A stretch of 64,000 nt of DNA, from positions 138,590 to 202,589 of the forward strand of contig CASFDV010000001.1 in assembly GCA_949293555.1 (NCBI GenBank), given 5' to 3'. Shown here piece by piece: positions 14,175 to 14,395 of the stretch; position 1 is the stretch's first letter, and each line of letters opens with the position of its first letter. This DNA is from an uncultured Bacillota bacterium. Lineage in GTDB: Bacteria > Bacillota_I > Bacilli_A > RFN20 > CAG-826. The position numbers were made by a program, and so were the translations under genes. The notes under the pieces are model-generated. The model saw only the letters and a list, made by a program, of their open reading frames with translations. It had not been told where the DNA came from and searched no databases.

Positions 14175-14225
14175 GCTTCCTCCTTCGGGCAAAGACGCCG
14201 CCCCGGCGGAGGGAACATTCCCTCG

Positions 14226-14318
14226 GGCATCGTTCCGGCGGGGGCCGGCTGGGCGGAGCACTTACCTCCTGGAGGAGTTGCTAGGCGGCCATTCGCCCGG
14301 GACCGCCTTCTGGATGCC
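14226..14318 (-). promoter_or_regulatory. Candidate divergent SAM-I-clan riboswitch before metK
   Basis: Read on the minus strand, P1 is GGCATC (14318-14313) with GATGCC (14231-14226). P2 is GGCGGTC (14307-14301) with GGCCGCC (14290-14284). Then comes TAGCAA, P3 CTCC (14277-14274) with GGAG (14269-14266), and P4 CCGGC (14248-14244) with GCCGG (14239-14235). The P2 loop GGGCG (14298-14294) can pair with CGCCC (14255-14251) after P3. This is the SAM-I layout, including the GCAAC junction and a pseudoknot to J3/4, but primary sequence differs from the known class. Ligand is inferred from the metK context. Confidence 0.55.
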
Positions 14319-14340: not shown

Positions 14341-14395
14341 GCGGGATAGCCTTCCGGAAGGAACAAGAAAAGCGATCCCTTGCGGGACCGCTTCC

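Follow-up and report, generated by a model that had tools for sequence, protein, structure and literature searches.

The metK leader of an uncultured Bacillota bacterium very probably contains a SAM riboswitch that belongs to the SAM-I (S box) lineage and regulates this gene in cis, as judged from the sequence of the leader and its relatives. The element was found on the minus strand of the window, by which is meant the whole stretch of 64,000 nucleotides that was analysed, and is separated from metK by 52 nt. The first-pass annotation had described P1 to P4 in SAM-I order, GCAAC and a 5-bp pseudoknot, all of which were read on the minus strand at the positions given in Table 1, and the span assigned to the element, 14226-14318, runs exactly from P1 to P1'. 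The two downstream hairpins to which it had drawn attention, GAGGGA/TCCCTC and CGCCG/CGGCG, also exist in the sequence. Read 5' to 3' the leader is AGAAAGGCATCCAGAAGGCGGTCCCGGGCGAATGGCCGCCTAGCAACTCCTCCAGGAGGTAAGTGCTCCGCCCAGCCGGCCCCCGCCGGAACGATGCCCGAGG (14323-14221, minus strand). The gene upstream is closed by a terminator-like hairpin, so metK probably forms a transcription unit by itself; a sigma-70 scan gave no passing match, though TATACT is present at 14340-14335.

Table 1. Features of the metK leader and its surroundings, in window coordinates
Feature	Position	Strand	Remarks
metK, S-adenosylmethionine synthetase, 392 aa	12996..14174	-	TIGR01034, 502.7 bits (cut-off 309.4)
Shine-Dalgarno GGAGG	14179..14183	-	can pair with CCUCC (14212-14208 region)
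Hairpin CGCCG-GGG-CGGCG, then TCTTT	14196..14208 (arms 14208-14204 / 14200-14196)	-	candidate weak terminator; 40-nt prefix fold
Hairpin GAGGGA-AUGU-UCCCUC	14209..14224 (arms 14224-14219 / 14214-14209)	-	candidate anti-sequestor/antiterminator
P1 3' strand GATGCC	14226..14231	-	pairs with GGCATC
P4 hairpin CCGGC-CCCC-GCCGG	14235..14248 (arms 14248-14244 / 14239-14235)	-	covaries
Pseudoknot 3' strand CGCCC in J3/4	14251..14255	-	5 bp with GGGCG of P2 loop
P3 CCTC/GAGG, then GTAAGTGCT	14257..14275 (P3 14275-14272 / 14268-14265)	-	P3 covaries
TAGCAACTC, lower P3 and AA of SAM-binding internal loop (14279, 14278)	14275..14283	-	invariant in relatives
GCAAC	14281-14277	-	
P2 3' strand CCGCC	14284..14288	-	covaries
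P2 loop, without recognisable kink-turn arm	14289..14302	-	carries pseudoknot strand GGGCG (14298-14294)
P2 5' strand GGCGG	14303..14307	-	covaries
J1/2 CAGAA	14308..14312	-	G at 14310 invariant, 75/75 leaders
P1 5' strand GGCATC	14313..14318	-	SAM-I-type AUC at P1 top; covaries in relatives
Terminator-like hairpin of upstream gene	14368..14395	-	

The element is taken as real because of homology and covariation, not because of its folding energy. The energy of the window leader was not significantly different from chance (z -0.57 and -0.69) and its minimum-energy fold differs from the claimed fold, an unexceptional result of the kind that would be expected if the structure were a chance fold inside a GC-rich spacer. 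Homology was investigated with a covariance model, R1, seeded from eight well-aligned leaders with the window excluded, this seeding being chosen since AGC/P4 was misplaced when all leaders were aligned together with MAFFT. R1 matched the window element at 14323-14221 (minus strand) with 58.1 bits (E 8e-11 in 587 kb), and one copy was found in the window's genome with a second model, R2. In a model-fitted alignment of 74 leaders 94.4% of cells were paired, as against 66% in shuffles, pairing fell to 31-39% when partners were slid by one to three columns and the covariation score was 0.746 compared with 0.191. An anchor-based analysis of 75 distinct leaders, employing sequence anchors and no structural fitting, gave three P1 pairs outside AUC/GAU (72-75/75 paired, 3-5 pair types), six P2 pairs (64-74/75 paired, up to six types), two P3 pairs (68-74/75 paired) and four to five P4 pairs with up to five types. 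Complementarity between the P2 loop and J3/4 in the pseudoknot was 13.0 versus 8.65 +/- 0.24 for swapped partners. A caveat that must be applied to all of these comparisons is that the leaders are related by descent, so that p-values overstate independence. Covariation in homologous metK leaders had been named beforehand as a check on the fold, and strong covariation was seen in each of the four helices P1 to P4 and in the pseudoknot. Conservation and covariation across more than 70 distinct leaders leave a chance fold vanishingly improbable, and comparative sequence analysis confirms the window element as a real, strongly conserved four-way-junction RNA.

Wherever it could be scored, the element lies directly in front of metK. 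MetK was found in 138 of the 146 genomes of the window's family and the same motif lies 5' of metK in 29 of the 30 best loci (L001-L009 and L011-L030), the exception being L010. In that locus (genome G096, same genus) metK sits directly behind the upstream gene and the riboswitch leader is absent. A DNA pattern scan that took no account of genes, run on one genome per species, yielded at least 64 more loci carrying the full motif, and metK follows 37-106 nt downstream in 63 of these 64, the remaining locus ending with its contig; about half of the loci returned by the pattern were chance matches in which the remainder of the motif was missing. Wherever there was enough downstream sequence, metK lay 37-106 nt after the core (92/92 loci). 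Because TAGCAACTY and GTAAGTGCT are prescribed by the scan pattern, their invariance within the scan set is a matter of selection, but neither varies among the 29 leaders identified by way of MetK.

Attempts to place the element among the known SAM riboswitch families gave a result that depends on which leaders are examined. Rfam scans revealed no match of RF00162, the SAM-I model, to the window element at E <= 10, and no SAM-family match in the window and nine relatives. A separate new class was at first suggested by these missing matches and was dropped once sister leaders scored with RF00162. Six metK leaders from sister genera exceed the RF00162 gathering cut-off of 44.4 bits (51.2, 47.9, 46.6, 45.9, 45.5 and 44.5 bits), and the leader L004 from the window's own genus, in a genome whose MetK is 74-75% identical to that of the window, matches over the full model length with 37.1 bits (E 2.8e-7). 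The series is unbroken, and the window element stands at its divergent end. Elsewhere in the same order and class, further families also have RF00162-type SAM-I leaders, with an intact kink-turn in L180 and L186. In the covariance-model search proposed with the original reading, RF00162 misses the window element yet matches sister metK leaders. The description of the element as SAM-I-like and divergent stands, and the suggestion of a variant class holds as a lineage variant within SAM-I and fails as a separate class. On these sequence comparisons the window element belongs to SAM-I (S box) as a lineage variant, its membership being conferred by lineage and not by its own RF00162 score.

Features common to the variant and RF00162 are the order P1 to P4 with P4 inside the junction between J3/4 and the P1 3' strand, AUC/GAU at the top of P1, AGA in J1/2, GCAAC, GUGC, the 2-nt P3 bulge, the pseudoknot between P2 loop and J3/4, the association with metK and terminator platforms. 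In contrast to SAM-I, the P2 arm of the variant is only 22-31 nt long and is without a kink-turn arm: folding found no second P2 helix of >=3 bp in 61/75 P2 arms, and no GA/UGA kink-turn pattern was seen. The earlier remark that the kink-turn arm was different is borne out in the window, where P2 has no recognisable arm of this kind. The pseudoknot is longer than in SAM-I, usually 5-6 bp, and the pair that follows the binding pocket in P3 is U-A rather than C-G (ACUC...GUAAG versus ACCc...gAaGG). A proposal that ACUC/GUAAG represents a new P3 internal loop was rejected, as the RF00162 consensus has a 2-nt bulge there too. Whereas SAM-I has the AA of GGUGCUAA, J3/4 of the variant consists of GUGCUC, the pseudoknot strand and AGC, and its P4 loop is complementary to the terminator. 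The absence of GGTGCTAA, to which the first-pass annotation had pointed, comes down to U-A for C-G beside the P3 bulge together with a shortened J3/4 (GTAAGTGCTC).

Assignment to the SAM-I/IV or SAM-IV family in place of SAM-I was considered, given the P2 without an internal loop. The core is common to the SAM clan, SAM-IV included. P4 lies outside the junction in SAM-IV (RF00634) and inside it here, and whole-Rfam scans of the window and relatives gave no RF00634 match. For SAM-I/IV the segment GUGCUC, which we take to resemble that family, was counted in favour. SAM-I/IV RNAs also have a P2 from which the internal loop is absent (PMC2864571), as is the case here. However, RF01725, the SAM-I/IV model, exceeded its cut-off in 0/36 genomes and its weak matches were never at metK leaders, several of which match RF00162 instead. 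The SAM-binding core is common to both, but the 3' subdomain that defines RF01725 was not seen, P4 falls within the junction and there was no sign of a 3' helix paired with the P3 loop, making membership of either family quite improbable and leaving SAM-I as the preferred placement. One leader in another family of the class, L188 (95-196), has its best match to SAM-I/IV rather than SAM-I (28.9 bits, below cut-off), which suggests that the family border within the clan is blurred in this class.

In crystal structures of SAM-I the ligand is contacted by AUC/GAU, G11, A45/A46 and U57/G58. Positions equivalent to these, mapped through the RF00162 alignment, are present in the window and near-invariant in relatives, AUC/GAU at the top of P1 among them. 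The G at 14310 is taken to be the equivalent of G11, given the RF00162 consensus alignment of the relatives and established knowledge of SAM-I structure, and 14260 and 14259 in the segment after P3 correspond to U57/G58. The window keeps AUC/GAU, the J1/2 G, GCAAC and GUGCU, and since the core positions equivalent to SAM contacts are retained, the element probably has SAM as its ligand and probably represses metK. In two of the metK leaders, both from MAGs of horse faeces (L063 642-748 and L081 3200-3334), the top of P1 carries G-C (GUC/GAC) where A-U is invariant in the others, at a position that contacts SAM in SAM-I.

A SAM-I scaffold could also sense spermidine, SAH or methionine, and spermidine-sensing SAM-I variants do exist, one of them 5' of metK (PMC10853860). 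The scaffold is common to both and the position before metK can be, but those variants are altered in J1/2 and the P3 internal loop (PMC10853860), whereas here both are unaltered and keep the SAM-I letters. Furthermore metK is the only gene found downstream, and the probability left to another ligand is small. Conservation in front of a single gene would equally suit a leader bound by a protein, or one regulated by, for example, uncharged tRNA without any metabolite; homology to RF00162 members, the gradual passage to them and an intact core argue against this, and such a leader is very improbable. SAM remains the preferred ligand.

How binding would be converted into control of metK is less clear in the window than in its relatives. 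The CGCCG/CGGCG hairpin has no long T tract and is therefore a weak candidate terminator. GGCGUC (14199-14194), in the 3' arm of this hairpin, can pair with GAUGCC of P1; pairing is also possible between the P4 loop CCCC and CGGGG at 14205-14201, and between UUCCCUC and GAGGGA just 3' of P1. An alternative fold in which CCUCC pairs with the Shine-Dalgarno GGAGG is equal in computed energy (-22.5 versus -22.4 kcal/mol). With a poor T tract and two folds of equal energy, control of metK in the window may be either transcriptional or translational. L003 and L004, from the same genus, have the equivalent GGAGGG/CCCTCC and clear T-tract terminators, and in their computed platform folds the P1 3' strand can favour either state. 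That SAM lowers metK expression we infer from the biology, the computed folds allowing either direction.

Among the relatives a terminator follows the aptamer in 67/75 leaders. A classical antiterminator, formed by the P1 3' strand with the terminator 5' arm, is visible in leaders like L060 and L079 (AAGTTAGGAA/TTCCTAACTT), whereas in most other leaders this duplex is weak. In ~53 relatives the P4 apex and the 3' arm and loop of the terminator are complementary, and the two covary: CCCACC faces GGTGGG, CCCACA faces TGTGGG and CCCAGAA faces TTCTGGG, with CCCACG/CGTGGG, CCACCC/GGGTGG and TCCCCG/CGGGGA among the further pairs. Complementarity between P4 loop and terminator was 15.56 versus 12.50 +/- 0.20 when P4 loops were swapped among leaders, and when only bases past the C run on the side of the terminator loop were counted, contiguous pairs numbered 2.46 versus 1.67 +/- 0.09; these statistics are descriptive, being based on related sequences and a simple hairpin caller. 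Leaders without P4-loop pairing had stronger classical antiterminators (-11.9 versus -7.7 kcal/mol, p ~1e-5 on unique combinations), 12 leaders being counted in this group, one of which, L113, was misassigned through a mis-called terminator with the trend unchanged. Bases of the terminator stem are needed in 52 of the 53 clear P4-loop pairings, so that this pairing would compete with the terminator. For the same reason, and with 38 having loops of <=4 nt, a kissing interaction of the P4 loop with the loop of a terminator that has already formed is less likely. P4 is probably an antiterminator clamp, a role that looks new.

In the proposed mechanism SAM held in the P1/P3 pocket would stabilise P1, which would withdraw the P1 3' strand from alternative pairing downstream; the terminator would then form and metK would be turned down when SAM is plentiful. 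A weak terminator, pairing over the ribosome-binding site or both may take its place in the GC-rich genome of the window. When SAM is low, the P4 loop would capture the terminator 3' arm as part of an antiterminator in most relatives and possibly in the window. The balance tips slightly towards an undescribed SAM-I subtype without a P2 kink-turn in which, at low SAM, the P4 loop takes the 3' arm of the terminator and the P1 3' strand takes the 5' arm, which would make P4 itself a component of the switch.

The distribution of the variant is centred on a single family. R2 matched 204 of the 279 genomes of the order, nearly all in the window's family with the rest weaker, and 68 of the 395 genomes of the class, where the extra families score lower. 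Low-scoring R2 matches in other families of the class were rejected as examples of the variant, those that were read being RF00162-type SAM-I. The records that carry a name are MAGs from gut and rumen, with the labels Bacilli, Bacillales, Erysipelotrichaceae, Candidatus Alloenteromonas and Candidatus Onthovivens. In one genome R2 has a second match, a weak one (30 bits), away from metK at G012:C14:43619-43727. Genomes of the same family also contain RF00162 matches of 58-62 bits off metK (L164, L165, L166, L167 and L168, the last at 1501-1588), which keep a kink-turn P2 and a CAAGC/GCTTG pseudoknot and seemingly have no P4 between J3/4 and P1, i.e. a three-way junction. Downstream ORFs encode an N-formylglutamate amidohydrolase-like protein (L166) and otherwise proteins without a Pfam match.

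No description of a kink-turn-less metK subtype was found in the open-licence literature, and one may exist elsewhere. The window element is probably best regarded as ordinary in function and divergent in form, and the use of P4 in antitermination among these leaders is probably new. It indicates that an aptamer of the SAM-I kind can dispense with the kink-turn arm, long deemed structural, and yet persist before metK. Leaders of this kind span a large family of uncultured bacteria from gut and rumen, and intermediates remain in sister groups. The divergence accounts for the failure of standard annotation to recognise SAM control of metK in these genomes. Should the P4-loop clamp be real, a peripheral helix of the aptamer would directly join the terminator decision.
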